The notes under the pieces: generated by a model | Told to the model about the DNA's origin: nothing | The model's database searches: none | The model's input: the letters and a program-made list of their open reading frames with translations, nothing else | Shown: one piece after another, positions 4,179 through 40,600 of the stretch | Layout of the letters: each line of letters opens with the position of its first letter | Numbering within the stretch: the stretch's first letter is position 1 | Assembly (NCBI GenBank): GCA_023485865.1 | Contig: JAMCZC010000035.1 | Span: 1 to 44,131 of the forward strand | Direction: 5' to 3' | Length of the DNA stretch: 44,131 nt | Origin: Patescibacteria group bacterium | GTDB taxonomy: Bacteria > Patescibacteriota > Microgenomatia > Levybacterales > UBA12049 | Made by a program: the position numbers and the translations under genes

Positions 4179-4179
4179 A

Positions 4180-13100: not shown

Positions 13101-15435
13101 TCAAAACTGCAAACTTAGCAGATTGGGTTGATTGTCCTCCAACTAATAAATCAACTGTGGAATTGGCGGGGAAAAGGGCTCCGGCACCCGCCCCGGAAGT
13201 AGGCTGAATCCAATAGTTTGTTCCCGCCGGACAGGTTCCCGTTCCCGTTACTATTCCTCCGGTTGTATTTACGCAGGCGTTGGTGAGGGTTTGTCCTTGA
13301 TTTGTGCCGACAGAGAAAATGCTGCCGCCGGCTATAGTTGTGTTTCCCGAACCATCCACAGTGAATTTGGCAGTTCCGCTTTGCGAAGCGCTAATTAACG
13401 GCCCTCCTCCGGTTTGATTCAGCGTCAAGGCTGATTGGCCGCTTGAGGTAGCCAAAACAGCAAATAAACCGTCAACTTCCACCGCTCCGACGGCACTAGA
13501 TATATTGTTACTGATTGATGTATTAACTAGTGGTTTGTCGAGAGCAATTTTTCCCGTTCCGTCGGGCGAAAGGGTAATATTTGAATTGCTTCCCGCGTTG
13601 GTTGTGAGAAGCACAGGCTGGCCGGAGATTGTAAATTGGCCTCCGCTTGCCTGGAAAGTCGGATTGGCGCTTCCGCCAATGGTTAAGTTTCCCGATGAGT
13701 CCAAGGCTAAAACGACATTGTTTGTTCCTGCACCGGATTGGGTTATTGGAGCTAGACCCTGTAACGTTTCCGAATTAGCCGCAAAAGCAACCGTTGCCAG
13801 CTGTTGCCTGGGCGTCATTTCGGGGGTGGTATTAACGCTAACGCCTAAGAATAAGGCGGAATTAGAGGCAAAAAGCCAGTTAGGGATTCCGCAGGGTCCG
13901 GTTGGGTTAGTTTGGTTAACCGGACACATTCCGGCGTTTCCCAGTAAAACCGAAAAAATTCCGTCCTGATCCGGGCTTACGCTGTCAACTTCCTGCCAAA
14001 ACAAAGCACTGCCTGTGGCCGGCGCCTGGGCATTATATATTGCAAACCTTAAGGCGCTGGGGGTAGAAATAGGATTATCCTGGTTATCCGTAAGTCTTCC
14101 CTGAAAAGATAAGATTCTGATTGGGGCGCTGGGCAAAGCGGCTAGAGCAGGATTACCGGTTGTTGGTTTTTGGAAAAATGACTGGTAGAAACCAAAGCCG
14201 ATAACAGCCATAAAGATAATCAAAATTGCAAAATGGAAGTAGTGGGTAATTGCATAGGAATGATACGTTTTGTACCATTTTGGACGTTTATATCGGAGCG
14301 TAAACCAGGCTTTCTTGTACCAGGGAAAGTATTTTGTTGAGATATCCAGGGGAGCATACATTGCCTTCGGCAAATTTCCAATTTCCAATTTCCAATTTCC
14401 AATTTTCGAACTTTTGATTTTTGATTTTTGATTTTTGATTTTGGCAAAGACCGGTTTTCCTTTGGCCAGCCAGGTCAGGTACGAAGCCTTGTCAAAAACT
14501 TTAGCAAAGGGGATGGTCAAGAGCTGATCAAAAGCAAAAATGCCTATCTCTGATAGTTTTTGAGCTAGTCTGAGAGGGGGAAAGCCCGAATATGACTCAT
14601 GATTTGAGACGGACACCTCGGAGGTGGCTTTAGACTCCTGCGAGGTGAATCTTTCGAGCTCTAGGCGGACATTTTTCCCAGTACTCCTATCCAAATCATA
14701 ATTCTTAATTCCTAATTCATAATTCTTTCCAAGGAGGCCTTCGGCCTGTGCCCAATTTAGGTATTTGCGTAAAGAGGAGAGCTTGCGGTTTACCGTTGCC
14801 GGGGAAAACCCCACTTCGCCAAGGCTTCGAGGGGCAAGTAGCCTTTGTTTGTATTCTTCCAATAATTGCGGGCTAATCGCATTCAAAACATTTCTTGAGC
14901 TTCCATTGTCTAGCCTCAAATCTAATACTTCCTCTGCCCAAGTTAGGAATTGTTTCAAGTCTATGAGATAGTTTTTTATAGTAAGATGCGAAGCGTTGTA
15001 GACATAGAGGTAGTTTTTAAAGTCCCGGATCTTATATGGGTCCGCTGATTGCTGATTGCTGATTGCTGATTGCTGAGCGAACGGATCGTGAGCGATATGT
15101 CCTTCCAGTTTTAAAAACTTAAAAAATTTGCGAAGAGAGGATAAGTGACGCTCGAGCGATCTCTCCGAGAGCGCAGATTTCTGATTTCTGATTTCTGATT
15201 TCTGATTTTTTTCTGCAATCTGTAATCCGTAATCATCAATCGCTTCGCGTTTGTATGCTTCGATTGTTCCAGTGGTTACAAGTTGGGGAGAAAAAGGCTT
15301 TTGGTAATGAGATTCATACCAACGAATGAAATGATTAATGTCAGATGTATAATTCTTGACAGTAGCCCTGGAAGCCGAATTGGGTGGAGCTAGCAAAAAT
15401 GTTTTGAATTGTTGTACAAAGTTATCGTTTGACAT
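4180..15435 (-). CDS. Giant repetitive surface protein with two N-terminal tyrosine-recombinase SAM-like domains, a TM segment and VGIGTT.P / NSTVDLL.GG.ST.SAKF repeats
   Basis: ORF 4180..15468. Likely start is MSNDNFVQQFKTFLL at 15435. N-terminus: ...SRATVKNYTSDINHFIRWYE...ERSLERHLSSLRKFFKFLKLEGHI and ...ASHLTIKNYLIDLKQFLTWAEE...SPATVNRKLSSLRKYLNWAQAEG. TM near AITHYFHFAILIIFMAVIGFGFYQSFF. Then thousands of residues of Gly/Ser/Thr/Asn-rich repeats. Confidence 0.9.
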   Translation of the reverse strand: MSNDNFVQQFKTFLLAPPNSASRATVKNYTSDINHFIRWYESHYQKPFSPQLVTTGTIEAYKREAIDDYGLQIAEKNQKSEIRNQKSALSERSLERHLSSLRKFFKFLKLEGHIAHDPFAQQSAISNQQSADPYKIRDFKNYLYVYNASHLTIKNYLIDLKQFLTWAEEVLDLRLDNGSSRNVLNAISPQLLEEYKQRLLAPRSLGEVGFSPATVNRKLSSLRKYLNWAQAEGLLGKNYELGIKNYDLDRSTGKNVRLELERFTSQESKATSEVSVSNHESYSGFPPLRLAQKLSEIGIFAFDQLLTIPFAKVFDKASYLTWLAKGKPVFAKIKNQKSKIKSSKIGNWKLEIGNLPKAMYAPLDISTKYFPWYKKAWFTLRYKRPKWYKTYHSYAITHYFHFAILIIFMAVIGFGFYQSFFQKPTTGNPALAALPSAPIRILSFQGRLTDNQDNPISTPSALRFAIYNAQAPATGSALFWQEVDSVSPDQDGIFSVLLGNAGMCPVNQTNPTGPCGIPNWLFASNSALFLGVSVNTTPEMTPRQQLATVAFAANSETLQGLAPITQSGAGTNNVVLALDSSGNLTIGGSANPTFQASGGQFTISGQPVLLTTNAGSNSNITLSPDGTGKIALDKPLVNTSISNNISSAVGAVEVDGLFAVLATSSGQSALTLNQTGGGPLISASQSGTAKFTVDGSGNTTIAGGSIFSVGTNQGQTLTNACVNTTGGIVTGTGTCPAGTNYWIQPTSGAGAGALFPANSTVDLLVGGQSTQSAKFAVLNVNSGTPVASVAGNFSLGSAAGTTRTIGATAMNALQIGDTNTGAVQINPNGSTGLYVNGSGNVGIGTTTPNNAIQVANLINFPNSNFGTSLGYQAGGGTGFYNSFVGYQAGYANSGNANTAIGMRALHYSSSSSNNTATGYYSLQNNTTGGGNTVNGAYAGTGVFGNSDISNNALFGYQAGTALITGGNNNTLLGYNAGLNITSGASNIMLGSGTNAPSATGSNQLNIGNTIYGNLSSGIIGISTTSPTAPLQINGAYGSNAALIVNNLNSGDIFTASASGTTRLTLSNGGNLNLIGGVYQSGGTNGISTSNACVNTTGGIVTGTGTCPAGTGTNWWNQLAGALSPVDTTNDLLLGSTATSSALFSFTGIKTGQTIASASGNLIVMPNNGWGGQAAIGYNNPGTATLAVNGNVGIGTTSPTALLDVAGAASVGGQLTFRSGTAQIQSTANQLLTLGGNTTGDIQFKPGNSSSSLYLSSTGSVGVGTTFPLTTLDIRGNSGTLAVASISGKTSFASLVVNNDGVGDLFTASASGWTRFRIAGSGAITSATYTTGGGVIYTTSNGLFSQTTAGASNECLKSTGGSAPTWGTCGSGGDSFWGQTNGLLYPGNSTVDLAIGGVASTSAKFLFANVNSGTPTLKIFDSTKTYSLNLSHDGTNGNIISTTGTVNIGQGGGTLYVQTDIQNDSTNNLGAVQITDRLNVLPAATSNINSNAALIVNNPGTGDILTASASGVPKFTIGNTGAITSGLYTNAGGILYTATSGLIGQTAIGTSAQCLTGGTTPSFSSSCLFSDPYWNQQNGALFPNNSTVDLLIGGQSTTSAKFALVNIAGTRGTQTASLSGSLVLDSSTASIQTTNNQLLTIGGNTTGNITISPLNGGAGSLLTVNAITTTLSGTTTLTASSLGTIDAAAALSLDSTTLILGNGSAATIQTTTGGLTLDSGSNTLTIAASDTILTASGIATVSLGTSATINAGATALNLQQDGAIDVNIAGGSSATGCTISNSTGNLTCSGNIASTQTSGVQGWWQRSLGALSPTNITDDFLLGGTATSTAQFSVSNIAKNQAVASLSGQFIVMPNNGWGGQVGIGTTSPLNKLQVYGTLKVGGDASQAVGIIALGDDLSTTANVGIFRGTSAGASGGGNVLLVGGYSGFGITTGNAALGSQGAPKFYVDTSGNVGIGTGAPTAPLHINTGYANNAALIVNNLNSGNLIAASASGTTQFYLTNAGSAYARSFYDLDNPAYFLDPAATATAGAFFGSVGIGTATPNNKLDVKGNIVATGYFAGESSANLTTIQATGTTTGDGNNGSIYFADSSSVERARVDTSQQTINNGTGADGNILISGTVNINTTNVIASRSCVDGGDAVNYSVSSLTSTTAVLSSTPSSGCLAVGDEVLLINLQGTSSNTVNVGNYETLKIQSISTNTITFTTSKKNYYGDGAANDTNIGTLTTNQRVMLQRIPNYNNVTVLPGGTLTASGWSNPKGGVLFFRAAGSVDNRGTISMSGNGYTGGAGGTSNIVNGTGGESFDGAGSAGTTGAAGLNRGGGAGGISGGTGAGGSGGGGFGGGGGGGGGSGYASSSPAAGGAGGGTNVCAGGGGGGAGTINSNGGAGGAACNAGAIGTGGGAGGLAGSGATGGGTGAAGTTAGGGGGGGLYGRADLSILNLGSGSGGSGYNGTVPISGSSGVSGGGIIYIGASSLYSSAGKITSNGSAGATGVSGGTGSGGGAGGSIYLNTGTAILGTVNANGGGGGAGSGTNYAGGGGGDGGTGRIHITANSINGTSNPVADTTILTPLTSGTGADGNILISGTVNINTTNVIASRSCVDGGDAVNYSVSSLTSTTAVLSSTPSSGCLAVGDEVLLINLQGTSSNTVNVGNYETLKIQSISTNTITFTTSKKNYYGDGAANDTNIGTLTTNQRVMLQRIPNYNNVTVLPGGTLTASGWSNPKGGVLFFRAAGSVDNRGTISMSGNGYTGGAGGTSNIVNGTGGESFDGAGSAGTTGAAGLNRGGGAGGISGGTGAGGSGGGGFGGGGGGGGGSGYASSSPAAGGAGGGTNVCAGGGGGGAGTINSNGGAGGAACNAGAIGTGGGAGGLAGSGATGGGTGAAGTTAGGGGGGGLYGRADLSILNLGSGSGGSGYNGTVPISGSSGVSGGGIIYIGASSLYSSAGKITSNGSAGATGVSGGTGSGGGAGGSIYLNTGTAILGTVNANGGGGGAGSGTNYAGGGGGDGGTGRIHITANSINGTSNPVADTTGSAIGSSGSINGTLYSGNATIYNTLQLYGNGSMLQLYDYGTTTPTRPNNGDLALGNVGSGATQGRLFIQSGGTNFYFSSAGTGDFSEFFKNSDPTLTTGQVVSVDSSTSRAVIKTTKAYDNGIVGVIARPGEGTQNNNNQDGTRENDPNYKNVSLLGQTPVVVSNINGDIHTGDKLTSSNIPGVAMKATQPGFIVGTALEAFTCSNSNEPGSSASNSANFGLVSPALCQGSIQAYIKAGYYDPTPAILTDVLGIKNYVVRLGNSVEGTAYSSIATVTDTAGNVVNRAEVLAGAVIGNLQAGVINAQEITTNSLTTLTANIQNLTSNNIVSPIAQIDTVHTNLISPITNDSAIALKFENNKLSILNGNSASTSAVSSFDNQGNATFSGKLTSDNLQVTNDASIAGTLRAGKILASEIEGLPISTSSSIFVTNNYYASTSSDLASSSALTNPYTLAANSYIDIASYSGLLANVDNLNAQTATFTQGLMSFGPSSFSDVSVVGQLSIDGNLILASNSINVLGSDLNLQPLRQGGLSIMAGLFYIDTNGNLKVGGNAEFAKDVKVGGVLSTNIISPIPGSDLALNLGSNEPGSSASNSQFRVNNSSNSAILTINQSGDLTASGTATFGKLNLNLVSPAFALSNTEVVATGSAGVVTLKAYRTEITVDNNLVTSKSLIYITPVGQTLGQNLYLLRQVPNDPLNGTTGSFTVGINAPVPTDVKFNFLIIN
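6356..7725. repeat. 1370-bp direct repeat, copy 1 (Gly-rich domain of giant gene)
   Basis: Starts gtcgtatccgccacaggatttgaag, ends ccgtcggcgccggtgcc. Repeated at an offset of 1392 bp (464 codons, in frame). Confidence 0.92.
7748..9117. repeat. 1370-bp direct repeat, copy 2
   Basis: Same sequence as 6356..7725 by eye. Short antisense ORFs 6648..6848/8040..8240 and 6984..7166/8376..8558 translate identically. 22-bp spacer between copies. Confidence 0.92.
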
Positions 15436-16069
15436 ATTTATTCCTTCGTTCCAGCCTTCTCTTCCCACCTAAGCTTCCCATTCGCATTCTGGTACTATTC
15501 GTACGCTGCTCTTGGAGCGCTTTTTGGCGGGCAAGAAATAAGCTTTCCGAATAACCGCCGTCTTTAATAAAAGCGTTTTCCAAAGAGGCGAGCTGTTTAT
15601 CCAAAAGATAAGTCGCCTGGTAAATTAGGCAGATTAAGCAGTTGGCAAAATCTTCCGGGGAAGTCAAATAGGACTTATAGGTCTCATAAGACTTATCGGA
15701 CCTATAGGCTAAAGCCCGGACAGCTTTGGCTTTTGGGGAATCTTTTTCCCACAGAGGAAGTTCTCTTTGGCGCAGGAAATCCTGGTAATCAAGAAGTAAT
15801 TCTTCCAAAGAAGCCCTAGCTACGCCTATAAGTTTTATTTCGGTTTTTTTAGACACGGCTGAAGCAAGCGAACCTTCAGCTATATTCTGTCTGCCCGAAC
15901 GGGCAGCTTGGATCATTTGGTCGTTCATCCGATAGGACCTATTAGACGCATAAGTCAGATAGGTCTTACAAAATTCAACTGTTAGGTCGTAAATAAGGGT
16001 AGTAGTCTGATAAGATTTAAGATTTTTGTATCCTCCGTAGGTTTTTTTGTTAAGCAGTTCTTGGTTCAT
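15422..16069 (-). CDS. Four-helix-bundle protein (S23/IVP-like, Avd-superfamily style)
   Basis: MNDQMIQAARSGRQNIAEGS...KTEIKLIGVARASLEELLLDYQDFLRQRELPLW...LIYQATYLLDKQLASLENAFIKDGGYSE; paralogous to 39117..39671. 3' end overlaps the giant gene start. Confidence 0.85.
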   Translation of the reverse strand: MNQELLNKKTYGGYKNLKSYQTTTLIYDLTVEFCKTYLTYASNRSYRMNDQMIQAARSGRQNIAEGSLASAVSKKTEIKLIGVARASLEELLLDYQDFLRQRELPLWEKDSPKAKAVRALAYRSDKSYETYKSYLTSPEDFANCLICLIYQATYLLDKQLASLENAFIKDGGYSESLFLARQKALQEQRTNSTRMRMGSLGGKRRLERRNKYVKR

Positions 16070-16418: not shown

Positions 16419-16516
16419 TGCAAATATGCAAATGACGAATAAGCAAATGAATGCATTAATACATTAAATTATTTAATTATTCATTTGAGATTTGCTTATT
16501 TGCTTATTTTTGCATT
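16419..16516. repeat. Intergenic repeat family A: (GCAAATAA)n ... (TTATTTGC)n palindrome
   Basis: tgcaaatgacgaataagcaaatgaatgcattaatacattaaattatttaattattcatttgagatttgcttatttgcttattt. Confidence 0.85.
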
Positions 16517-16798
16517 CCCGTTTTGGCGGTAAGTTATTCTAAGTGATAAGGTTTTTAAAGTTGTATTTTGGATTGATATGATAGGAAAAATAGAATTTTT
16601 GAAATTGGAGCTTGGAATTCTTGAAGTTAGAAGTTGGATATCTTTGATCTTGAAACTTTGAAATCAAGAAATCTTGAAATCATGATATCAAAATAATCAA
16701 AATCGAGGATGTCAAAAATATCCAACGTCAAGTATTCCAACTTTTGCTTGCAATTTAAGGCTCGGGTAAGCATAATTAGTTTAGACCTTAAGCCAATT

Positions 16799-16924
16799 TC
16801 AAATATGCAAATGACGAATAAGCAAATGAATATAAAAATATTTAAATCAAAAAATCAAATTAATAAATTTATGAATTCAAACATTCATTTAAAATTTGCA
16901 TATTTGCATATTTGCATATTATTT
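16799..16924. repeat. Repeat family A; 3' arm encodes signal peptide of 16871..17752
   Basis: caaatatgcaaatgacgaataagcaaatgaatataaa...aacattcatttaaaatttgcatatttgcatatttgcatatt. Confidence 0.85.
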
Positions 16925-17752
16925 CTGCTTATTTTTGCATTTGCCGCGCCTTCGGCGTTTGCTGCCTTCAAAATCCCGGTCCAGGCTCAGGTAGGGAAAT
17001 TCTATTTAAACCTTTCAGGCTATATTTCTCCTTACGCTTCGGTTGTTTTAACAATTGACGGATTATTTGTAAGAGCAACGGTTGCCGACGCAGGAGGCAA
17101 TTTTTCCATATCGGGGGTTTTAATTAAGGAAGGCTTTTCTAAATTTTGCCTTGAAGCCGTTGACTTCAAAAGACTCGGAGATTCCTTTACCTGTTTTACT
17201 GTTCCTCCTGCAAAAGGCGACGTAACCATGACGGGAATATTTCTCCCGCCAACGCTTGGTCTTTCTAAAAACGTAATAGCCGAGGGAGGGGAGACTTTGG
17301 CCTTCGGTTACACGATGCCGGGTGCGGAAGTCACACTATACCTAAGTAACGGCCAAAAATTAACGACAACAGCAGATAGCACGGGTTATTACATTTTTAA
17401 CATTAAGAATCTCAAGGCCGGGAAATATAACTTATACGCAAGGGCCTTCTACAACCATAAAGAATCCCTTGCGCCGACAAAGACGCTGGAGCTTCGGGCA
17501 TTGTCGTGGTGGGAGCAAATAATTGCCTTTATAAAGAGCATTATTAATAAGATAATTAAGTTTTTCAGCTCGTGGGCCTTAGGACCGCTTTGGCTTGCCC
17601 TGCCAATCCTTATCCTCATTATTATACTTATTTTAAAGCTCTGGCCGGAGAAGTTTACGTTTATATACCAGTCGCGCCTTATAATCTTCTTTACAAGGGC
17701 ATTCAGGAAGCCCAGGAAGCCCCTTCACCATAGCTGGTGGCTCGGGTACTAA
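16871..17752 (+). CDS. Secreted protein with carboxypeptidase-regulatory/Ig-like domains and C-terminal TM
   Basis: ORF 16709..17752. Plausible start MNSNIHLKFAYLHICILFLLIFAFAAPSAFA (signal peptide), then AFGYTMPGAEVTLYLSNGQKLTTTADSTGYYIFNIKNLKAGKYNLYARA. Confidence 0.75.
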   Translation: MNSNIHLKFAYLHICILFLLIFAFAAPSAFAAFKIPVQAQVGKFYLNLSGYISPYASVVLTIDGLFVRATVADAGGNFSISGVLIKEGFSKFCLEAVDFKRLGDSFTCFTVPPAKGDVTMTGIFLPPTLGLSKNVIAEGGETLAFGYTMPGAEVTLYLSNGQKLTTTADSTGYYIFNIKNLKAGKYNLYARAFYNHKESLAPTKTLELRALSWWEQIIAFIKSIINKIIKFFSSWALGPLWLALPILILIIILILKLWPEKFTFIYQSRLIIFFTRAFRKPRKPLHHSWWLGY

Positions 17753-17757
17753 TGATA

Positions 17758-17853
17758 AATATGCAAATATGCAAATTTCAAATGAATGAATTAATCATTA
17801 AATCATTTAAATATTCATTTGCTTATTAGTCATTTGTAATATTTGCTTATTTT
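17758..17853. repeat. Intergenic repeat family A
   Basis: aatatgcaaatatgcaaatttcaaatgaatgaattaatcattaaatcatttaaatattcatttgcttattagtcatttgtaatatttgcttatttt. Confidence 0.85.
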
Positions 17854-17861
17854 AAGAAGGT

Positions 17862-18917
17862 TTATTTAGCTTCGGGGGTTTCGGGAGCCTCCGTCTTCTT
17901 TTCTGAAGGTTTTACATCAGATTTCTTTCCAAACGAGGGTTTTTTGAAGCCGTTTTTTCTGTAATACATGCTTCCCAGAATCAAGGCTATAATTACAAGG
18001 ATTACAATGACTGCGATTTTCCAGGGGAAAACCCAGAAATAAACGGCTGACGCTAAGGGAAGGTTGTTATTTACTCCATAACTTGCCAGAAGCTCCGCTT
18101 TAAAGCGGCCAATCATCAGTTTTCCTCCAAACTGATTTTCATAGTCTCTGGCTGCTTGAGGGAAGATATTGTTTTCTTTAAGCGGCAGAATCGCTTTTCG
18201 CCCAAGCATATCCGATACGGTTATGTATCCTTGCGGCCTGATGTGCAAGTCTCCGAAGTTTTTTATTTGGGTTAATATCTTTACCGGTCCGTATTCCTGG
18301 AAACCGTTGGCAAAGAATTTGGTAACAGTTGCGCTTTCTTTAATGGGGCCCTTTACCGTAATATAAAAGAGCGAACCTGCTTGCGTAACCACCGTGGCTC
18401 CCGTGCCTCCAACGTTAACATTTGTCGCAGGAGTGTATAAAACGGCGGCATAATGACCCCCGGGCCTTGCGTTTTTAGGCACCTGGATAAAATAATTCAA
18501 CTCTTGTCTTGCGCGCGATTTTATTGTAAACGTATCGGGCGTTACGCCTAGCCAGGCAGCGGCAGAATATTTATTTGAGAGGCTATTGTTGGGAAGGAAA
18601 ACCGGTGTTCCGATAGTGTCTTCTACTATAAAGTCTTTTACAGCAGTTGTAAAAGTTAAATCATGGTCGGTATCGTTAATTACTTTTAAAGTCCCTTCGG
18701 CTGTTTGGCCCGGATCAAGCTTTTGGGAGACGGTAGGGGGACTTATGGTATAAGTTCTGAACGTTTCCTGGGCCCTTGCCCTTTGGGCAAGAATGACACC
18801 AATAAGCAAATAAGCAAATAAGCAAGCAGATAATAACCCAATACGCAAATATGCAAATGACAAATGAATGTTTAAATGTCTGAATGAATTAATTTGGTAA
18901 TTTTTTGATTTAATCAT
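17862..18917 (-). CDS. Secreted, membrane-anchored DUF916-like Ig-fold protein
   Basis: Signal peptide FAYLRIGLLSACLFAYLLIGVILAQRARAQ; TVSQKLDPGQTAEGTLKVINDTDHDLTF...PGGHYAAVLYTPA; C-terminal TM and charged tail. Family assignment tentative. Confidence 0.75.
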   Translation of the reverse strand: MIKSKNYQINSFRHLNIHLSFAYLRIGLLSACLFAYLLIGVILAQRARAQETFRTYTISPPTVSQKLDPGQTAEGTLKVINDTDHDLTFTTAVKDFIVEDTIGTPVFLPNNSLSNKYSAAAWLGVTPDTFTIKSRARQELNYFIQVPKNARPGGHYAAVLYTPATNVNVGGTGATVVTQAGSLFYITVKGPIKESATVTKFFANGFQEYGPVKILTQIKNFGDLHIRPQGYITVSDMLGRKAILPLKENNIFPQAARDYENQFGGKLMIGRFKAELLASYGVNNNLPLASAVYFWVFPWKIAVIVILVIIALILGSMYYRKNGFKKPSFGKKSDVKPSEKKTEAPETPEAK

Positions 18918-18960
18918 TTATAAATTTATTTGCATATTCGTCATTTGCATATTTGAAATT
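18799..18960. repeat. Repeat family A; one arm encodes signal peptide of 17862..18917
   Basis: aataagcaaataagcaaataagcaagcag...gcaaatatgcaaatgacaaatgaatgtttaaatgtctgaatgaattaatttggtaattttttgatttaatcatttataaatttatttgcatattcgtcatttgcatatttgaaatt. Confidence 0.88.
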
Positions 18961-18973
18961 CTTTCTAGCCTTG

Positions 18974-20425
18974 CTAGAAAGTAGCTGTCGCAACGTAAGT
19001 TACGACGCTATAATAAGTTCCTGCCGGAATTGTTACATCAACAGCGCCTGCATATTCGACCGATGTCAATCCCGCTCCTACGCCTCCTGTTGCTGCGGTG
19101 TTACCAATCGGTCCGGTAGACGCAGAAGCTAAGGTTACAGCTGTTGATTGCGTCGGCCAGCCGTATTTTGCGCCGGTTCCACCGCCTGTTGCGTCATTTC
19201 TTGTTGTTGTATACCAGATTGACGTCACGTTGAGCCCGCAAGGGTGGATGCCAAACCACGGTACATTAATTGTCATTGCCGTAGGTGTAGTGCTATCGGG
19301 AATCCAGATCCCTGTGGCCGGGTTTACAAGGTGTCCCGAAGAGGTTGCTGTAAGAGTATAGCCGCCGCTGGCATTGGTGCTAATAGTTATAAGCTGGGCG
19401 GAGATATTGATTGTTGAGGTGTTAAGAATTCCTAAGTTAATCGTTGTTGCCGTTGAAGCAATTCCGGAGTTAACAGATTCGGTATTTGTACAGCCGGTTG
19501 TGTTCCCGGTATTAATAGCGCCCGATACGGGAGCGATGGTAAAAGTAAGAGTCGGGTCAACAGTTGCCTGAACCTGCACCGATTCTATAGTTCCAATCGT
19601 AGCCTTTGCGCTGTCTAGCGTTACACTGTTGTTGTCTTGAGTCTGAATAGAAATTTTCCAGTTATCTGCAGTTCCGGCGGCTGCTGATTTTGTCGGGTTG
19701 ATAAGCCTAGGGGAATTAGTCGTGCAGCTTGTTTCGTTGCTGGAGCTATCAGCACAGCCAATAAGAAAAGTTATCACTGTGCCTCCAACTACTGAACCTC
19801 CCGCATCAACAGTGCAAGTAATTGTTGGCGTTTGTCCTGAAGTAGCAATTGCAAAAGTGCATGTTCTTGTCCCGTCAAGCTTATAAGAAATATTGCTTGC
19901 GGAGTTTGCAGTGGTAAGACCATTAAACGAAAAGGTCGTAGCAGATGGAGATGCCGTTGTTACGGCAGTGCCTGGAAAAGTAAGTACTATTTTTCCGCTT
20001 GCCGGAACGGTAGAAATCGTTGTGAACTGAATTTTATGCGTTGTTGTAATGGCGGTTGTTATCGGATCTCCTGCGTGGTGGGTATTTGCTGCCGTATTGG
20101 TAAAGTAGACGATTCTTTGATTGGAAGAAGGTGTGTTTGCGGCAGACATTGAGGCAACATTAACCGTGTTTAAAGTTTCTCCGGTATCCGGCCAAAGAAC
20201 AGCAGAGTCCGATGCTAAAAAAATGGAGCCATTGTCATTTATAGTTACCTGTCCGGCAGAAGCAGCCTGATTAGATGTCAAAGGTGCGGAAGCGGATGGG
20301 CGGGAAGTGGTGATAGTGTCAGAAACGCTCGTTAGGGAAGCTGCCCTGGCTTTTTGCACAAAAAAACCCCCGGTCAGGAGAAAGAAAATCAAAATGAACA
20401 CAAGCCTACGAATAGTAATTGCCAT
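18974..20425 (-). CDS. Secreted Ser/Thr-rich hypothetical surface protein
   Basis: 483-aa ORF with N-terminal hydrophobic segment MAITIRRLVFILIFFLLTGGFFVQKARAAS and Ser/Thr-rich beta-type repeats. Confidence 0.75.
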   Translation of the reverse strand: MAITIRRLVFILIFFLLTGGFFVQKARAASLTSVSDTITTSRPSASAPLTSNQAASAGQVTINDNGSIFLASDSAVLWPDTGETLNTVNVASMSAANTPSSNQRIVYFTNTAANTHHAGDPITTAITTTHKIQFTTISTVPASGKIVLTFPGTAVTTASPSATTFSFNGLTTANSASNISYKLDGTRTCTFAIATSGQTPTITCTVDAGGSVVGGTVITFLIGCADSSSNETSCTTNSPRLINPTKSAAAGTADNWKISIQTQDNNSVTLDSAKATIGTIESVQVQATVDPTLTFTIAPVSGAINTGNTTGCTNTESVNSGIASTATTINLGILNTSTINISAQLITISTNASGGYTLTATSSGHLVNPATGIWIPDSTTPTAMTINVPWFGIHPCGLNVTSIWYTTTRNDATGGGTGAKYGWPTQSTAVTLASASTGPIGNTAATGGVGAGLTSVEYAGAVDVTIPAGTYYSVVTYVATATF

Positions 20426-20576
20426 TTTTCATAGCACCGGAACGACAGTACTAATACTATATATATTGAGGAAATTTTTAATACTTGTCAAGTGCCAGTC
20501 TGGCCTTTATTGGTAGTTTTTTTAATTCTTATTGCTATTACTAGTATAACAGAAGGTTTTGATATTCTATGGATAA

Positions 20577-22526
20577 TTATTTTAAAGATATTGTTGAGGT
20601 ATAAAAGCTTCCGTCACTTAAAGTTGCTTTTAGCTGGTAAGTTCCAGGGCTTCCAAGAGGTGGGTTTTGGGTAGATAAATTGTAAATATAAATGTTGTTT
20701 GTCGAATCATATCTAAACTGGTTTCCAGTGTCAGCATTACTTGTTGACGTTGTTGCTTCGTCTGTCCCTACAATACCGTCCGTTATTTTTGCAACATAAA
20801 GATAAACAGTTGCATTGCTAATAATATTCCCGTTGTAGTTAGTTAATTGAAATTTAATTGGTATTGTCCCTCCGGTTTTAAAAACTTTATTATCTCCTAA
20901 AGGCGGAAGGAATCCTCCAAAATTGTAATGGACGTAGTAGATAACAGTTTTTGTTGCAGTATTTCCGGCTTTATCTGCTGCAGAAACCATAAAACTATGC
21001 GCACCAACAGTGCCAGTATCAATGTTTTGTCCGCTAGGAACTGTTCCAGTCGAGGATGCAACTCCTGATAAATTGTCTGTTGTTGACCAAACAGCCGTTA
21101 TAGGTTGATTTAAAATATAAGAATTTCCATCAATAGGGGAATTAATTATAATTGTTGGAGGAGTTTTATCAATTTTGAGAGTATAAGTATTAGTTTGTTC
21201 TACATTCCCCGCAATATCCACCGACCAATAAGTTATTGTATTCGTTCCTTCATTTGAAATTGTAAAGCTTGTAGAATTTCCCGATATTACCTGTTCGACT
21301 CCTCCGTTAATTGTATAATGTATCTCCTTTACTCCTGAACCGCCATTATTATCTGTTGCATTTAAAGTTACATTTACATCCGTAAAATTCCACCCATTTA
21401 CATCCTGTTGGGGATTTTGAGTAAGGTTAGTTACTGGAGGAATTGAATCAACAATGTCGTTAAAGACATTTAAATTACCAGAAGTAGCATCTCTTACATA
21501 AATTAAGCCGGTAGCTGAATTTACCACTACATTCCACGGAGAGGATGTATGGGGATCAGCGAACTCAATGGGATCATTTATTGCTCCGTCTACCACTGCT
21601 ATTACTGCATTGCTGTTTGTATAAGTTTGAAAATCTGATATATAAATTCTATTGGTTGAAGTGTTAATATCCATACCAGCACTATAAAAACCCACATTTG
21701 TAGTTTTAACAACGGAGTTAGTTGACATATTTATTATATTAAGTTCATCTGCCAGCCAGCTATTAGAATACAAAAGATTAGTGTTGGGATTCAAAACTAA
21801 AACACTTGGTGTCTGACTAACCGGTATTTCGGTAGTTATCGTGTTAGAAATTGTATCAACTACTCCAATACGCCCAGAGTTCCAGGCTCCTAAATAAAGG
21901 GCATTTGTATTAGCATTTAATGCCATAGATGGAACTGAAGCTGCCGACGAAGAAGTTATGGTTGTTAATATTTGATTAGAGTTACCATCTACTACAAATA
22001 CTGTTCCTCCAAGACGGTAATAAATAGTATTGTTATTAGAATTTATAACAAGATATGAGTCACCTTGTGTTCCTACGGGATTTGTGGTAGTTGATTGGAT
22101 TATAGCATATGTGTTTCCATCTATAGAGATTAAATGTTGCGCACCAGCGGTTCCTACGTATATGGTATTAGTTACCTGGTTAAAAGCAATTGAGGAAGTA
22201 GATTCACCTAAGACTGGCCCATGAAGAGGAATTGACGCTATGGTAGAATTGTCATTCAAATTTATTACCTGTACAGTGTCATAGCCGGTCAATACATACA
22301 TTTTATTTGTTGCTTTATTTATTGTCATAGATCTGACACCTCCGAAATTTTCAAAATGAATACTCTGAAGATATTGCATTGAGGCATATGATTTGAGAGG
22401 AAAAGAAGATGCTAGAATAATAAAAAAAATAAAAAAAACTGAAACTCCAATGAGGAAATATATAGAAGAAGAAAACTGTTTTCTTGTCCTCATATTAAAT
22501 TTAATAATAGAGCGCTTCTGATACAA
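20577..22526 (-). CDS. Secreted YncE/NHL-like beta-propeller protein with C-terminal Ig-like domains
   Basis: 649 aa; repeated NxxTNxIYVG..., SIDGNTYAIIQSTTTNPVG, NPNTNLLYSNSW motifs; DKTPPTIIINSPIDG...YILNQPITAVWSTTDNLSGVASSTG. Confidence 0.8.
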   Translation of the reverse strand: MYQKRSIIKFNMRTRKQFSSSIYFLIGVSVFFIFFIILASSFPLKSYASMQYLQSIHFENFGGVRSMTINKATNKMYVLTGYDTVQVINLNDNSTIASIPLHGPVLGESTSSIAFNQVTNTIYVGTAGAQHLISIDGNTYAIIQSTTTNPVGTQGDSYLVINSNNNTIYYRLGGTVFVVDGNSNQILTTITSSSAASVPSMALNANTNALYLGAWNSGRIGVVDTISNTITTEIPVSQTPSVLVLNPNTNLLYSNSWLADELNIINMSTNSVVKTTNVGFYSAGMDINTSTNRIYISDFQTYTNSNAVIAVVDGAINDPIEFADPHTSSPWNVVVNSATGLIYVRDATSGNLNVFNDIVDSIPPVTNLTQNPQQDVNGWNFTDVNVTLNATDNNGGSGVKEIHYTINGGVEQVISGNSTSFTISNEGTNTITYWSVDIAGNVEQTNTYTLKIDKTPPTIIINSPIDGNSYILNQPITAVWSTTDNLSGVASSTGTVPSGQNIDTGTVGAHSFMVSAADKAGNTATKTVIYYVHYNFGGFLPPLGDNKVFKTGGTIPIKFQLTNYNGNIISNATVYLYVAKITDGIVGTDEATTSTSNADTGNQFRYDSTNNIYIYNLSTQNPPLGSPGTYQLKATLSDGSFYTSTISLK

Positions 22527-22541
22527 TTGTCAAGATCCAAT

Positions 22542-23591
22542 TCAGACTTTATTGGCGGTTTTTTTAACTCTTATGATAATTGCCGTAATAATCAATATTA
22601 TGATTAAAATTCCAAACAAAGTTTCGGTTGGAAAAGCATAGAAACTGACAGTTCTTCTATAAAGAGGGCCTTGGTCGGAGAGAGCGATGGTTAGAGTCGC
22701 GGTATATGGTCCAAAAAGAAAGGTTTCGGGCCAGACGGCGGCAGGGGACTTAAGACTCAAGACGTAAGACTTAAAAGAGGCGGGGGTGGTAGCGGTTGGA
22801 GATTGCAAAGAGTCGGGGATAGAGCGGACGGACTGGGATAAAATATTCACAGGCAGTAAATCTACATTTCCCACGGTTTGTCCAAACATGTTTTTGATTA
22901 GGATATTGCCTTTGGTGGTTATAAAATGGTCGCTTGTATTCCTAACCCGCACCGTAAAAGGCACAGGGCCGCTTGGGACAAAAAGAGGCGCCGAAAACTC
23001 TTCAATGTTTCCTTGGGTCATACCTTTGGGGCCAACCGAAAGCAATACGTTTGTGGCTATTCCGGCAGCTTGGCCGGACACATTTGCAGTTTTCGCAGGC
23101 TGATTACTGGATATAAAAACAATTGAAAAATAATAATCTCCCAAAGGTTCTCCTTGAGGGAGCGCAATTTCAAGCATTAATTCTTTTTTCTGTCCGGGGG
23201 AAAGAGTTATAGAGTCAATAGAGGTGTCTTGGTCAAGAATTTGCATTTTGTCAAAGATAAAAGGATCGACGTAGCTAAAATCCGATAAATAGGTGACCTG
23301 ACCGTTTTCGCTGTCGGAAGCTGTAAAAGGTTTTATACCGATTCGTAAATCAACGGGATCATTTCCTAAATTTTCGATTAAAATTTTTGATTTTATGTCT
23401 GTCGGCGGCGTTGCCTGGATTTGCAGGATGGGAGGAAAAACACCCAGTGAAACCTGCGCTTGCGCAGCAGGCGCAAAAATAAGCAAATAAGCAAATAAGC
23501 CAACCAATAAGCAAATAAGCAAATAAGCAAATGACAAATGAATGTTTAAATGTCTGAATGAATTAATTTGGTAATTTTTTGATTTAATCAT
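22542..23591 (-). CDS. Secreted, membrane-anchored DUF916-like Ig-fold protein
   Basis: Signal peptide FAYLLICLLVGLFAYLLIFAPAAQAQ; VSLGVFPPILQIQATPPTDIKSKILIENLGNDPVDLRIGIKPF...PLGDYYFSIVFISS; C-terminal TM. Confidence 0.75.
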   Translation of the reverse strand: MIKSKNYQINSFRHLNIHLSFAYLLICLLVGLFAYLLIFAPAAQAQVSLGVFPPILQIQATPPTDIKSKILIENLGNDPVDLRIGIKPFTASDSENGQVTYLSDFSYVDPFIFDKMQILDQDTSIDSITLSPGQKKELMLEIALPQGEPLGDYYFSIVFISSNQPAKTANVSGQAAGIATNVLLSVGPKGMTQGNIEEFSAPLFVPSGPVPFTVRVRNTSDHFITTKGNILIKNMFGQTVGNVDLLPVNILSQSVRSIPDSLQSPTATTPASFKSYVLSLKSPAAVWPETFLFGPYTATLTIALSDQGPLYRRTVSFYAFPTETLFGILIIILIITAIIIRVKKTANKV

Positions 23592-23647
23592 TTATAAATT
23601 TATTTGCATATTTATCATTTGCATATTTGAAATTTGTAATTTGAAAT
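23477..23647. repeat. Repeat family A; near-identical core to 18799..18960
   Basis: ataagcaaataagcaaataagccaaccaataagcaaataagcaaataagcaaatgacaaatgaatgtttaaatgtctgaatgaattaatttggtaattttttgatttaatcatttataaatttatttgcatatttatcatttgcatatttgaaattt. Confidence 0.88.
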
Positions 23648-23655
23648 TCCTTCTT

Positions 23656-24405
23656 TCAGAAGGATGGTGTTGCGATATAGTTTATAACATTTGTATATAA
23701 TCCTGCCGCCTGGCTGTTTGAAATATTTAATTTATAGGTAATTTGCGCTTGTCTTCCTCTGCCGACATTTACAGAGCTCATAACTGTTACTGCCGAAGGC
23801 GAAGCCGCAAAAGGTTTATAAAAGTCGGTATGTCCGGTGAATTGAGAGTCGCAATCGGTCCCTGAAAGATTGTCACATCTATATCCAAATCCAAAAGTAT
23901 TAGGATCATTCCATAAAGCCGCGGTTGTAGTGTTGCAGGCACCGCTGTTGCAAGCGGTATCGGGAATCATTTGGCCGGATGAAGCGACCAGCAGAGCATG
24001 GTTTTCAGACGCTGTTACCGTATAGCCAAAAGCAGAACCGTTGGAAACGGTTAAATTATTGCTTCGTGTTACGGCAATAGTCGGACTAATCGTTCCAAAA
24101 TCAATATTTGTTTGCGAAATACTAAATGAGAAGGGAATAATGGACTTGATGTATTGAAAACCGGCCCGTACTTTAAAATTTGTGCCTGTATAAAGCCCCG
24201 GAGCTGTTTGGCCGACCGTAAGGTTTAAGGTAAATCCTCCGGTTGTAGTTTTCCCCGCCGCAGTATTAAAATTGCCAAAACGCAGTATAAAGTTTGCGTT
24301 TGACATAGTTTGAGCGGCAACGCCGCTCAAACTTAATAAGCAAATAAGCAAATAAGCAAATAACCCAATAAAAAGAGAACGTTTAAATGACAAAAATTTA
24401 TTCAT
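23656..24405 (-). CDS. Secreted hypothetical protein
   Basis: Signal peptide FIGLFAYLLICLLSLSGVAAQ; 249 aa. Confidence 0.7.
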   Translation of the reverse strand: MNKFLSFKRSLFIGLFAYLLICLLSLSGVAAQTMSNANFILRFGNFNTAAGKTTTGGFTLNLTVGQTAPGLYTGTNFKVRAGFQYIKSIIPFSFSISQTNIDFGTISPTIAVTRSNNLTVSNGSAFGYTVTASENHALLVASSGQMIPDTACNSGACNTTTAALWNDPNTFGFGYRCDNLSGTDCDSQFTGHTDFYKPFAASPSAVTVMSSVNVGRGRQAQITYKLNISNSQAAGLYTNVINYIATPSF

Positions 24406-24462
24406 TTAGTAATTCGATTATTGATTTGCATATTTGTCATTTGTAGTATTTGTTTATTTTTT
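24334..24462. repeat. Repeat family A; one arm encodes signal peptide of 23656..24405
   Basis: aataagcaaataagcaaataagcaaataacccaataaaaagag...tcgattattgatttgcatatttgtcatttgtagtatttgtttatttt. Confidence 0.82.
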
Positions 24463-25179: not shown

Positions 25180-25275
25180 AAAATTTCAAATTATAAATTT
25201 CTAATCAAATCTAAATGTTAAAATTTCAAAATTTAAAATTCAATGAAAATTAAAAATTTAAAATTTAAAATTAAA
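25180..25275. repeat. Repeat family B (AAATTT-type arms, core CAAATCYAAA...ATTGAAAATT), overlaps leuS start
   Basis: atttcaaattataaatttctaatcaaatctaaatgttaaaatttcaaaatttaaaattcaatgaaaattaaaaatttaaaatttaaaattaaa. Confidence 0.7.
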
Positions 25276-27891
25276 CCAAGGTATTTTCCTCAAGAGATAG
25301 AGCCGTACTGGCAAAAGGTTTGGAAAGAGCAGGGGATTTATAAGTTCAGCCCCGCTTCGCACAAGGCTTCGCGGGGTAAATATTATAACCTCGTTGAATT
25401 GCCATACCCGTCGGGCGACCTTCATTTTGGACACTGGTTTTCGTTTGTCCCCGCAGACGCCCACGCAAGATATAAGAGAATGAGCGGTTTTAATGTGTTT
25501 TTCCCAAACGGTTTTGACGCCTTCGGGCTTCCCGCTGAAAATGCAGCCATAAAACGGGGCGTGCACCCTAAAGACTGGACAATGAAAAACATCGAGAACA
25601 TGACCAAGCAATTTGGAACAATGGGGACAATGATTGATTGGAATTTTACCGCCATAACCTGTCTTCCGGAGTATTACAGATGGAATCAGTGGATATTTTT
25701 AAAAATGTTTGAAAAAGGAATTGCTTATAGAGGCAAGGCGTTGTCAAATTGGTGTCCGGTTGACCAGACGGTTTTGGCAAATGAACATATAGAAAACGGC
25801 TGTTGCTGGAGATGCGGAGCGGAAGTTATTCAAAAGGAAGTTGAGCAGTGGTTTTTAAAGATCACAGATTACGCAGATAAGCTTATTTGGTCTGAAAATA
25901 GCCGGGTCGTCGATCGCCAGCCACGCTTTTCGAATGATGCTCGCTCAAGTTTTCCAAAAAAACAATCTCAAACCCGCTCGCTAAGTGAAAGCCTTTCTTC
26001 AAATTTTAAAAATAAACCCAACAAAAGTGCGACGGCTTTCAATTCATCTCAAAGCGAACTGACTCCCTCCGATCAAAATAATCAATCATCAATCAACAAT
26101 CAACAATCAGCCGTTGATTGGCCAAAAGAGGTTAGGGAAGGGCAGAATAACTGGATTGGCAGGTCGGAAGGAATGCTCCTCGAATTTAAAATTGGAGAAG
26201 CGAAAGCTTCGATTGAAGTGTTTACAACCAGACCCGAAACAACAGATGGGGCTACTTTTTTGGTGGTTGCTCCGGAACACGAATTCGTAACTTCGTTACT
26301 CAATATAAAAGATAAAATATCGAATATAAAATATAAGGGAATTTTAGAATACGTTGGGGGAGCCAAGAAAAAGACCGAGATGGAGCGAAAAGAAGACAGA
26401 ACAAAGTCCGGAATTTTCAGCGGAGCTTATGTGAAAAATCCGGTAACGGGTAAAGATATTCCGGTTTGGGTTTCTGATTATGTTTTGGCAGGCTATGGTA
26501 CAGGAGCGATAATGGCAGTTCCATATGCAGATGAAAGAGACAGGGAATTTGCCGAAAAATTCGATCTTCCAATTACAGAAACTAAGTTCAACGCAAAGCC
26601 AAAGGGCAAAAAAAGGGTTAATTATCACCTTCGCGACTGGTCTGTTTCAAGACAGCGCTATTGGGGGACGCCAATCCCAATCATTTACTGTCATAACTGC
26701 TGGGAATCAAAATTAAAAATTAAAAATGAAAAATTAAAAATTGAATATGGAAGGACTTATATAGAGATGGATGGACAAGAATACGCAATGGTTCAGGTTC
26801 CGTTGGAAGATTTGCCAATTGAGCTTCCTTATGATGTTGATTACACGCCAAAAGGAAAGCCGCCCCTGGGAACAGACGAAGAGTGGCTTAACGTAAAATG
26901 TCCAAAATGCGGAGGACCGGCAAAAAGAGACGCGGAAACCCTGGATACTTTTTTTGATTCTGCCTGGTATTACTACCGCTATGTTTCTCCAAAATACGAA
27001 AAAGGGCCCTTCGACAAGCTCAGGGTAAAAGAACTTTTACCGGTTGACGTCTATTTCGGGGGAGCAGAGCATACCGTAGGCCACACTTTATACGCCAGAT
27101 TTTTCACCAAGTTTTTCAAAGATTTGGGGCTGGTGCCTTTTGACGAGTTTGCTTCAAAAAGAGTCCAGCATGGGGTAATTTTAGGGCCGGACGGCAACAG
27201 AATGAGCAAATCCCGGGGAAATGTTGTAAGCCCTGACGAGGTCGTAAAGGAATACGGTACCGACGCCTCAAGACTTTACCTTTGTTTTATGATGCCATAC
27301 GAAGCAACTGCACCTTGGTCAACATCTGCAATAAGCGGCATTTACAGGTTTTTAAAAAGAGTCTGGGATCTGCAATATGAGATTAAAAATAAAAAATTAA
27401 ATATAAAAAATGGATTAAGCAAAGAAGATTTAAGCCAGATGCATATAGCTATCAAAAAAGTGGGGGAAGATTTGGAAAATTTTCATTTCAATACCGCAGT
27501 CGCAGCCCTTATGACCTGGTTGAATTTTCTCTCGGCAAAAAAGGAAATTGCAAAAGAGGAGTACGAAACTTTTCTTAAACTTTTAAGTCCTTTTGCGCCC
27601 CATATCACAGAAGAACTTTGGCACTCGCTAAATCCGTCTGATAACTCCATCCATCTGGAAAGCTGGCCTAAATTTGACTCCAAATATCTTGTTGCGGATA
27701 AAGTATCTGTTGTCGTTCAGATAAACGGCAAGGTAAGGGACAGCATAAAAATCAAAAATCAAAAATCAAAAATCAAAAGTTACGTTGAGGAGGAAGCAAG
27801 AAAAAGCGGGAAGGTTAAGAGGTATCTGGAGGGAAAAGAGATAAAGAAGGTAATTTACGTAGAGGGCAGGATAATTAACTTTGTCATATAA
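25243..27891 (+). CDS. leuS: Leucyl-tRNA synthetase
   Basis: ELPYPSGDLHFGHWFSFVPADAHARYKRMSGFNVFFPNGFDAFGLPAENAA; WCPVDQTVLANEHIENGCCWRCG; NWIGRSEG; TTRPETTDGATFLVVAPEH; RDWSVSRQRYWGTPIPI; MSKSRGNVVSPDEV. Confidence 0.97.
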   Translation: MKIKNLKFKIKPRYFPQEIEPYWQKVWKEQGIYKFSPASHKASRGKYYNLVELPYPSGDLHFGHWFSFVPADAHARYKRMSGFNVFFPNGFDAFGLPAENAAIKRGVHPKDWTMKNIENMTKQFGTMGTMIDWNFTAITCLPEYYRWNQWIFLKMFEKGIAYRGKALSNWCPVDQTVLANEHIENGCCWRCGAEVIQKEVEQWFLKITDYADKLIWSENSRVVDRQPRFSNDARSSFPKKQSQTRSLSESLSSNFKNKPNKSATAFNSSQSELTPSDQNNQSSINNQQSAVDWPKEVREGQNNWIGRSEGMLLEFKIGEAKASIEVFTTRPETTDGATFLVVAPEHEFVTSLLNIKDKISNIKYKGILEYVGGAKKKTEMERKEDRTKSGIFSGAYVKNPVTGKDIPVWVSDYVLAGYGTGAIMAVPYADERDREFAEKFDLPITETKFNAKPKGKKRVNYHLRDWSVSRQRYWGTPIPIIYCHNCWESKLKIKNEKLKIEYGRTYIEMDGQEYAMVQVPLEDLPIELPYDVDYTPKGKPPLGTDEEWLNVKCPKCGGPAKRDAETLDTFFDSAWYYYRYVSPKYEKGPFDKLRVKELLPVDVYFGGAEHTVGHTLYARFFTKFFKDLGLVPFDEFASKRVQHGVILGPDGNRMSKSRGNVVSPDEVVKEYGTDASRLYLCFMMPYEATAPWSTSAISGIYRFLKRVWDLQYEIKNKKLNIKNGLSKEDLSQMHIAIKKVGEDLENFHFNTAVAALMTWLNFLSAKKEIAKEEYETFLKLLSPFAPHITEELWHSLNPSDNSIHLESWPKFDSKYLVADKVSVVVQINGKVRDSIKIKNQKSKIKSYVEEEARKSGKVKRYLEGKEIKKVIYVEGRIINFVI

Positions 27892-28646: not shown

Positions 28647-29113
28647 CAATAAGCAAATAAGCAAATGACTAATATGCAAATAAATAATAAAATTACTAAT
28701 CAACAAGTAAAAGAAAGGGATATTCACGAGAGAATTTATAAGTTTGTTATACGGGTAATTGCCTTAACAAAATCTCTTCCAAAAAATCCTCAAAACGATG
28801 TAATAATTTATCAAATTGTTAAATCTGTAACCTCAATGGGTGCAAATGACCAGGAGGCAGATGGTTCTGAATCAAGAAAAGACTTTATAGCAAAATACTC
28901 AATAGTAAAGAAAGAAAATAAAGAAACCAATTATTGGTTAAGAGTTATTGGTGATACAAACCCCGCTATAAAAAAACGGATAGGAAATCTTCAGAATGAA
29001 GGATTAGAGCTAGTTAGAATTATATCTGCGATCATATTAAGCGCAAAGAGAAAAATTTAATTATTTGAAGATTCATTTGAAATTTGCTTATTTGCATATT
29101 TGCTTATTCTAAA
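28646..29113. repeat. Family A arms in inverted orientation flanking the four-helix-bundle gene 28665..29060
   Basis: Left: caataagcaaataagcaaatgactaatatgcaaataaat. Right: gattcatttgaaatttgcttatttgcatatttgcttattct. Confidence 0.8.
28665..29060 (+). CDS. Four-helix-bundle protein (S23/IVP-like)
   Basis: RDIHERIYKFVIRVIALTKSLPKNPQNDVIIYQIVKSVTSMGANDQEADGSESRKDFIAKYSIVKKENKETNYWLRVI; flanked by arms of the intergenic repeat family. Confidence 0.85.
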   Translation: MTNMQINNKITNQQVKERDIHERIYKFVIRVIALTKSLPKNPQNDVIIYQIVKSVTSMGANDQEADGSESRKDFIAKYSIVKKENKETNYWLRVIGDTNPAIKKRIGNLQNEGLELVRIISAIILSAKRKI

Positions 29114-33087: not shown

Positions 33088-33459
33088 TTAATTTTGCCCT
33101 TTGCTTAGGGCGTTTTTAATCTTTTCAATTACGTCTTTTGGCTCAACCTGATATTTAAACACATAATCCGCCGCGCCGGCGTTAATTGCTTCTTTGACCA
33201 GTTCATCCTGACTAAAATTGGACAGTATAATTACCGGTATATTTTTTGTTTTATCATCAGTCTTAAGCTGTTTTAGAATGTCGTTTCCCGAATAGTCGGG
33301 TAAAACCTGATCGAGCAAAATAAGGTCAGGAGCTTCGGTTTTTGCCTTGTCCATACCTTCCTGTCCGGTGTTTTCGGCCATTACCTGAAAACCCTCTTTT
33401 GTAAGTGCGGCAGTAAAAATGGTGGTCAGCGCTTCGTCGTCGTCGATAAGAAGAATTTT
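33088..33459 (-). CDS. Single-domain response regulator (CheY-like receiver)
   Basis: MKILLIDDDEALTTIFTAALTKEGFQVMAENTGQEGMDKAKTEAPDLILLDQVLPDYSGNDILKQLK...PVIILSNF...GAADYVFKYQ. Start moved from the longest ORF (33579). Confidence 0.93.
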   Translation of the reverse strand, partial: KILLIDDDEALTTIFTAALTKEGFQVMAENTGQEGMDKAKTEAPDLILLDQVLPDYSGNDILKQLKTDDKTKNIPVIILSNFSQDELVKEAINAGAADYVFKYQVEPKDVIEKIKNALSKGQN

Positions 33460-33512
33460 CATAGCTAATACCAACGTAGCAGTTCTTTTTTGAAAATGCA
33501 AGCCCCCAGATA

Positions 33513-33611
33513 ATGATAAATATGCAAATGCTAAATAAGCAAATGAATATTTAAATGATTTAATGATTAATTCATTCATTTGAGATTTGCTTATTTGCTT
33601 ATTGGGTTATT
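33513..33611. repeat. Intergenic repeat family A
   Basis: gataaatatgcaaatgctaaataagcaaatgaatatttaaatgatttaatgattaattcattcatttgagatttgcttatttgcttattgggttatttt. Confidence 0.9.
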
Positions 33612-33635
33612 TTATTGTGGTACAATATTGCCAAT

Positions 33636-35282: not shown

Positions 35283-35457
35283 GAGTTATGGGTGCTGAGG
35301 TCGCTTACAGAAAATTTTTTTGGTACGTGCGCGATAAAGCTCAAGTTGTCCATCAAATAATGCCCGCTACTCCGTGCCGCAAAAATTTTGTAAGCTCCCC
35401 GCGCCGCCTATTTTCCTCCTTCAAATTTTTCTTTCCCCCTGCTATAATAAGCTTCTT

Positions 35458-37450: not shown

Positions 37451-37467
37451 CAAAATACTACAAATAC

Positions 37468-37560
37468 TACAAATGATAAATAAGCAAATGAATATATTAA
37501 TGCATTAAATCATTTAATTATTGATTTGAAATTTGCTTATTTGCATATTTGCTTATTATC
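37468..37560. repeat. Intergenic repeat family A
   Basis: aaatgataaataagcaaatgaatatattaatgcattaaatcatttaattattgatttgaaatttgcttatttgcatatttgcttatta. Confidence 0.88.
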
Positions 37561-40497: not shown

Positions 40498-40600
40498 TAA
40501 TTACAAATATGCAAATGCTAAATAAGCAAATGAATATTTAAATGATTTAATGATTAATTCATTCATTTGAAATTTGCTTATTTGCTTATTGGGTTATTTA
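40498..40600. repeat. Intergenic repeat family A, near-identical to 33513..33611
   Basis: aattacaaatatgcaaatgctaaataagcaaatgaatatttaaatgatttaatgattaattcattcatttgaaatttgcttatttgcttattgggttattt. Confidence 0.9.

Follow-up and report, generated by a model that had tools for sequence, protein, structure and literature searches.

The surface-protein genes of this locus raised the question of how a palindromic repeat that otherwise lies between genes could come to encode the signal peptides of several secreted proteins. The window (the whole stretch of DNA analysed, 44,131 nt) is contig C18 of G000, a patescibacterial metagenome-assembled genome (MAG) of 680 kb in 41 contigs that is 94% complete. 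Genes were called as simple ORFs, and the assemblies compared were MAGs. An earlier note on this DNA had described four ORFs by their N-terminal peptides, and all four were found as described:

p1, 16871..17752, forward strand: predicted secreted protein with a CarboxypepD_reg/Big domain and a C-terminal TM segment; signal peptide MNSNIHLKFAYLHICILFLLIFAFAAPSAFA from element copy E2
p2, 17862..18917, reverse strand: predicted secreted protein with a C-terminal anchor, distantly paralogous to p5; signal peptide from E4
p5, 22542..23591, reverse strand: WxLIP_PGBD-like surface protein (slightly under the Pfam cut-off) with a C-terminal TM segment; signal peptide from E5
p6, 23656..24405, reverse strand: weak PamT/Pam-pilin match, under the NCBIfam cut-offs; signal peptide MNKFLSFKRSLFIGLFAYLLICLLSLSGVAA

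Profile comparison also returned weak matches to CPR Pam-pilus models in the window operon. The repeat itself was an inverted repeat of 100-165 nt built of 8-nt units, its left arm being A-rich (AAATATGCAAATGACGAATAAGCAAATGAAT) and its right arm T-rich (ATTCATTTGAAATTTGCTTATTTGCTTATT). The short copies had no ORF of their own and folded as hairpins (z about -1.3 to -3.2). The following copies were located in the window, and more intergenic copies lay on contigs C13, C23 and C25:

E1, 16420..16527, forward strand: intergenic copy
E2, 16795..16949, forward strand: SP-type copy with A-rich left arm, open middle and T-rich TTTGCATA array; n- and h-region of p1; hairpin z -2.9
E3, 17755..17858, reverse strand: intergenic copy between the convergent p1 and p2
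E4, 18800..18962, reverse strand: SP-type copy with extra octamers; encodes the p2 signal peptide; hairpin z -2.7
E5, 23474..23636, reverse strand: SP-type copy sharing 95% identity with E4 across 129 nt; encodes the p5 signal peptide
E6, 24335..24460, reverse strand: copy without the middle insert; array of three TTTGCTTA units forming the p6 h-region; orthologous array in the relative G100 (locus L060)
E8, 33511..33612, forward strand: intergenic copy, absent at the orthologous G100 site
E9, 37459..37557, forward strand: intergenic copy
E10, 40500..40596, forward strand: intergenic copy

The octamer TTTGCTTA gave the same cyclic peptide, FAYLLICL, in every forward frame, as its length is not divisible by 3; on the reverse strand TAA was met. 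The exact 8-aa period that had been claimed for it was visible for one to two cycles only, each array holding about 3-4 octamers. The octamer formed the hydrophobic core of p2, p5 and p6, but p1, which had been listed with them, carried the TTTGCATA variant instead. A fifth case was found in the same genome, in gene L001 on contig C13 (L163:3115-6090), which encodes MNVQILKSKNYQINSFRHLDIHLELAYLHIRLFLICLLICLLIFAFVPRLAPAYA. In all five genes the octamer repeat DNA encoded the n- and h-regions of the signal peptide; the A-x-A cleavage region lay outside the repeat, and the proposal that the repeat supplies the secretion signal was therefore upheld for the first two regions and not for the third. 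The predicted peptides had an n-region net charge of +1 to +4, a 12-aa h-region hydropathy of 2.8-3.7, and A-x-A-like sites with small residues at -3 and -1, as is expected of Sec-type signal peptides by sequence, and Sec targeting of the repeat-encoded N-termini is predicted accordingly.

Translation of the repeat was assessed from the positions of start codons. The next ATG, GTG or TTG after the repeat was codon 119 in p1, 139 in p2 and 115 in p5, in each case within the conserved domain. As no usable start lies between the repeat and that domain, the repeat must be translated in these genes, three of the window's four, given ATG/GTG/TTG starts. In p6 the next such codon was codon 33, at the mature start; p1 had further in-frame starts upstream of the one used here.

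The element body at p1, p2 and p5 could be aligned to intergenic copies, both those of the window and those of other contigs. The N-terminus MIKSKNYQINSFRHLNIHLSFAYL was identical in p2 and p5, as the earlier note had reported, and the two proteins were about 28% identical, yet the underlying repeat DNA was 95% identical over 129 nt. The p1, p2 and p5 copies differed from the intergenic ones by a middle insert of 25-28 nt, which the p6 copy lacked, and those at p2 and p5 also by extra octamers. Searching the genome for the insert returned p2, p5 and the C13 gene only; the p1 insert carries a 3-nt deletion. The open-frame subtype (the p1, p2, p5 and L001 copies) is known at signal peptides only. 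Among the intergenic copies, 7 of 54 orientation and frame readings ended in an open hydrophobic tail. The idea that any insertion in any frame yields a signal peptide thus failed for whole elements, most readings being closed because the middles contain stops, and the description of the repeat as a ready-made signal, although supported as to the use of the repeat, was too strong.

The element resembled a MITE in being short, multi-copy and bounded by inverted-repeat arms, with no transposase gene. Its mobility is suggested by one clean presence/absence site, that of E8, at which a clear target duplication was not apparent. The p1/p2 junction (E3) was considered as an empty site and dropped in favor of E8, as the G100 gap there is about 200 nt. 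An Rfam search matched two tRNAs and nothing for the element. Octamer matches among named genomes were partly from Gottesman-, Woese- and Roizmanbacteria.

Comparison with a syntenic relative indicated when the repeat was recruited. The reference, L060/G100 (JAKALS010000003.1, WY5.bin132; equated with G101 on near-identical coordinates), belongs to genus g32 in the same family as the source and carries the same operon. Its p6 had an octamer signal peptide, the sole such array in that genome, with three full octamers and an open frame as in the window. The signal peptides of its p5 (MKHFVFCIKISLIILVILFTASILNTRYQILDTANA) and p2 contained no octamer and stood at the same place, as the orthologue comparison proposed earlier had anticipated, and the p3 signal peptides of the two genomes, which are not made of the repeat, resembled each other. 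As the octamer is common to both p6 genes and absent from G100 p5 and p2, recruitment at p6 is old, and the p5 and p2 signal peptides were probably replaced in the window lineage; less simply, they were altered in G100.

Tandemness was scored at periods of 6-9 (maximum 32) against codon shuffles, and signal peptides were called strongly periodic at p<=0.002 and a score >=22. Scores were 27 (p6), 24 (p5), 23 (p1) and 22 (p2), with codon-shuffle means of about 15-16 and p about 0.001-0.003, at or near the shuffle floor. Among 100 orthologues from relatives (own genome excluded), 30 signal peptides were strongly periodic, mostly with 7-nt units, although these cases are related and not independent, making the p-values descriptive. 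Periodicity was much rarer in p1 and p2 orthologues (5/40; 3/19 and 2/21) than in those of p5 and p6 (25/60; 16/30 and 9/30). In mature-region windows of p5 and p6 it was found once in 243, and in internal TM segments of the sampled stretches in 5 of 471, comprising 5/272 in the own genome (rates there being taken from about 300 kb) and 0/199 in relatives. Three of the five own cases fell in one truncated ORF, and another was the C13 gene's signal peptide in an over-extended ORF. Chance or composition was ruled out by the codon shuffles, the mature-region windows and the internal TM controls. An E. coli comparison gave 0/8. Repeats were also present, at a rate of 1-3%, in coding regions of other kinds, and a general tolerance of repeats in coding DNA may therefore account for some of the pattern. 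Signal peptides outside Pam-type genes showed little enrichment, and the effect is therefore concentrated in the Pam-type operon. Synonymous and nonsynonymous counts among cassettes were too few to show coding selection.

Other repeats were also observed in coding regions. Heptamer arrays (AAAAATC, AAATTTC), read as KNQKSKI or KFQISNF, occurred at 25243-27891, 33615-35282, 35374-36741 and 43303-44046 of the window, where the hosts were LeuRS, ArgRS, a peptidase and a glycosyltransferase-like protein and the inserts were tolerated and hydrophilic. At L167:3312-3911 and window 3-4181, heptamers encoded the n-regions KNLKFKIKN and NTKYKIPNTK before a pilin-like and another membrane-anchored protein. 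A 3762-aa ORF (4180-15468) had an integrase-like N-terminus and a glycine-rich region, several hundred residues long, that was near-identically duplicated internally.

The process was not confined to the octamer. It extended beyond the one palindrome family that the earlier note had described: relatives drew on other 7- and 8-nt families, and their signal peptides were built of units such as TTTTTAG, TTAACTT, GGCTTTT, TATACCT, ATCTCTC and GTAGTATT. An unbiased scan of 283 relatives for octamer arrays returned FAYLLIC-type signal peptides in four further genes of three genomes (two in G031, one each in G260 and G083) besides the p6 orthologue of G101. The octamer served internal TM segments in three genomes of that scan, and other copies were intergenic or beside a four-helix-bundle gene. 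At L260 (G167) and L270 (G149), octamer arrays encoded internal transmembrane segments of polytopic proteins. A signal-peptide cassette was common to different genes of one genome in five genomes (G000, G044, G010, G045 and G058), with two genes sharing it in each of the last four; the repeats from which the cassettes were built differed. Within-genome cassette scores were 86.6 (G044), 69 (G010), 51.6 (G045) and 48.2 (G058), ranging over 48-94 with G000 included; controls reached a maximum of 37.6 between genomes (n=3888) and 17 in within-genome mature regions. In G011 and G045, SP-type repeat units recurred genome-wide. The cassette of G044 p5 and p6 (L104, L072) was G+C-richer (MNILARGA..IFAGTAFC) with no pure tandem array, suggesting another repeat type serving as signal peptide.

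A candidate complete relative of the small element was found in the window:

Four-helix-bundle locus, 28648..29108, forward strand: 23S_rRNA_IVP gene 28665..29060 between octamer arms matching those of the element; N-terminus MTNMQINN arm-encoded

The gene sits between comEA- and comEC-like genes, an insertion common to the own genome and G031. At 30 related loci (L121-L150; also L057), nearly all had inverted 7/8-nt arms around the gene; the arm families included those serving as signal peptides, and the unit sequence varied by genome. The protein N-terminus was often arm-encoded at such loci of this order. By their common arms, the small elements may be derivatives of the four-helix-bundle element that lost the gene.

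We consider it quite likely that the signal peptides of this operon are exapted repeat DNA, seemingly rebuilt and copied on several independent occasions, in light of the shared sequence, the replacement relative to orthologues, the obligatory translation in three genes and the statistics. An element spanning the 5' end of a gene for a secreted protein would supply the start codon and a Lys/Asn-rich n-region from its A-rich arm and middle and the hydrophobic h-region from its T-rich arm, with the cleavage site provided by the host gene. The A-rich arm would code for Lys, Asn and Gln and the T-rich arm for Phe, Leu and Ile, and as the A-rich arm precedes the T-rich arm on either strand, the layout would be that of a signal peptide. 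Signal peptides would be a permissive landing place, since nothing beyond charge, hydrophobicity and A-x-A is required of them. Because stops break up most whole intergenic copies, an open variant had to arise before being copied. Ectopic recombination or conversion between repeats, or movement of the element, probably then spread that version to p1, p2, p5 and the C13 gene. Relatives show this process too, with repeat families of their own. The left arm of the transcribed element is predicted to pair with the h-region coding sequence, which could affect translation.

Local slippage, by which T-rich signal-peptide DNA would expand in situ with no mobile element and the intergenic copies would be secondary or unrelated, is an improbable account of the whole. 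Such changes are tolerated by signal peptides, and inverted arms were not found in every relative: a significant upstream inverted partner was present in 12 of 35 periodic signal peptides tested (own genome and G100 included), while 23 were T-rich arrays with no such arm, and these could be half-elements or slippage products. Slippage, however, does not fit the non-tandem middle and left arm of the own-genome copies, which are homologous to intergenic copies, the near-identity of the p2 and p5 DNA against the divergence of their proteins, the cassettes common to different genes in four other genomes, or the rarity of periodicity in internal TM segments of similar composition.

We regard it as very unlikely that the arrays are phase-variable contingency loci, in which an 8- or 7-nt unit, gained or lost, would change the reading frame and so turn surface proteins on or off. 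Repeats that are not multiples of 3 do stand at the 5' ends of surface-protein genes, and SSRs are reported, in work cited in PMC4692102, to be enriched near prokaryotic N-termini; but the arrays hold few units, and that of p6 has kept its unit number and open frame between the own genome and G100. Least credible of all is an annotation artefact in which the proteins begin downstream of the repeat. The response regulator ORF 33088..33579 is such a case, as E8 extends it into a false signal-peptide-like N-terminus and its true start is probably MKILLIDDD, where the conserved domain begins. In p1, p2 and p5, however, no alternative start precedes the conserved mature domain, and orthologues carry a signal-peptide-like segment at the same position. 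Exaptation of repeat DNA thus remains the preferred reading. More tentatively, and with rather less confidence than for this operon, we propose that inverted repeats derived from IVS-type elements are recurrent signal-peptide donors order-wide, that signals of the surface-pilus-like operon turn over not through point mutation alone but also as elements insert and a start-plus-signal cassette is copied from gene to gene, and that one subtype is a dispersed cassette.

Exaptation of this kind would provide a concrete route from non-coding, selfish-looking DNA to a needed protein part, one in which the genetic code makes an A-rich/T-rich palindrome read as a charged and then a hydrophobic segment, as in a signal peptide. 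How signal peptides arise and turn over becomes testable in a group with many genomes, and our findings suggest that CPR surface proteins can swap targeting modules like exons. They also connect four-helix-bundle genes, widespread in CPR but unexplained, with a dispersed repeat system.

Intervening sequences of 23S rRNA, the 23S_rRNA_IVP elements, are known in CPR rRNA genes (PMC11270868). As in those elements, a four-helix-bundle ORF lies between complementary arms at 28648-29108 and at most of the relatives' loci, and the arms of the own and relatives' copies are those of the signal-peptide elements; in contrast, the own copy lies outside rRNA genes, next to com-like genes, and the small elements have no ORF. 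Heptanucleotide tandem repeats of cyanobacteria and xanthomonads are dispersed 7-nt arrays, mostly intergenic; they are similar in their dispersal, but their units differ, a signal-peptide role is not reported for them, the paper nowhere using the term, and paired arms are not described in the portion of that source consulted (PMC4692102). Rickettsia palindromic elements (RPEs) are similarly palindromes of about 100-150 nt read in frame in unrelated genes (PMC10969869). In-frame presence was found here in five own-genome genes, a likeness by description, the element being unmatched in Rfam; RPEs, however, are in-frame insertions fused to diverse genes, whereas the element described here gives a predicted N-terminal export signal. 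The closest case is RU-2, an enterobacterial small mobile repeat that contributes to the signal peptide predicted for YPO1552 of Yersinia, a protein whose homologues from other genera carry signal peptides unrelated to it (PMC2759123). There one case is predicted, and the protein is small and hypothetical, whereas here a multi-gene cassette lies in a conserved surface-protein operon, with recurrence in several genera, different repeat families and p6 retained across genera. A cassette in several proteins, or repeated recruitment across genera, is not described for RU-2 or RPEs in the parts of those sources consulted. With RU-2/YPO1552 as a single-gene precedent, what is new is the recurrence, the cassette copying and the order-wide pattern.
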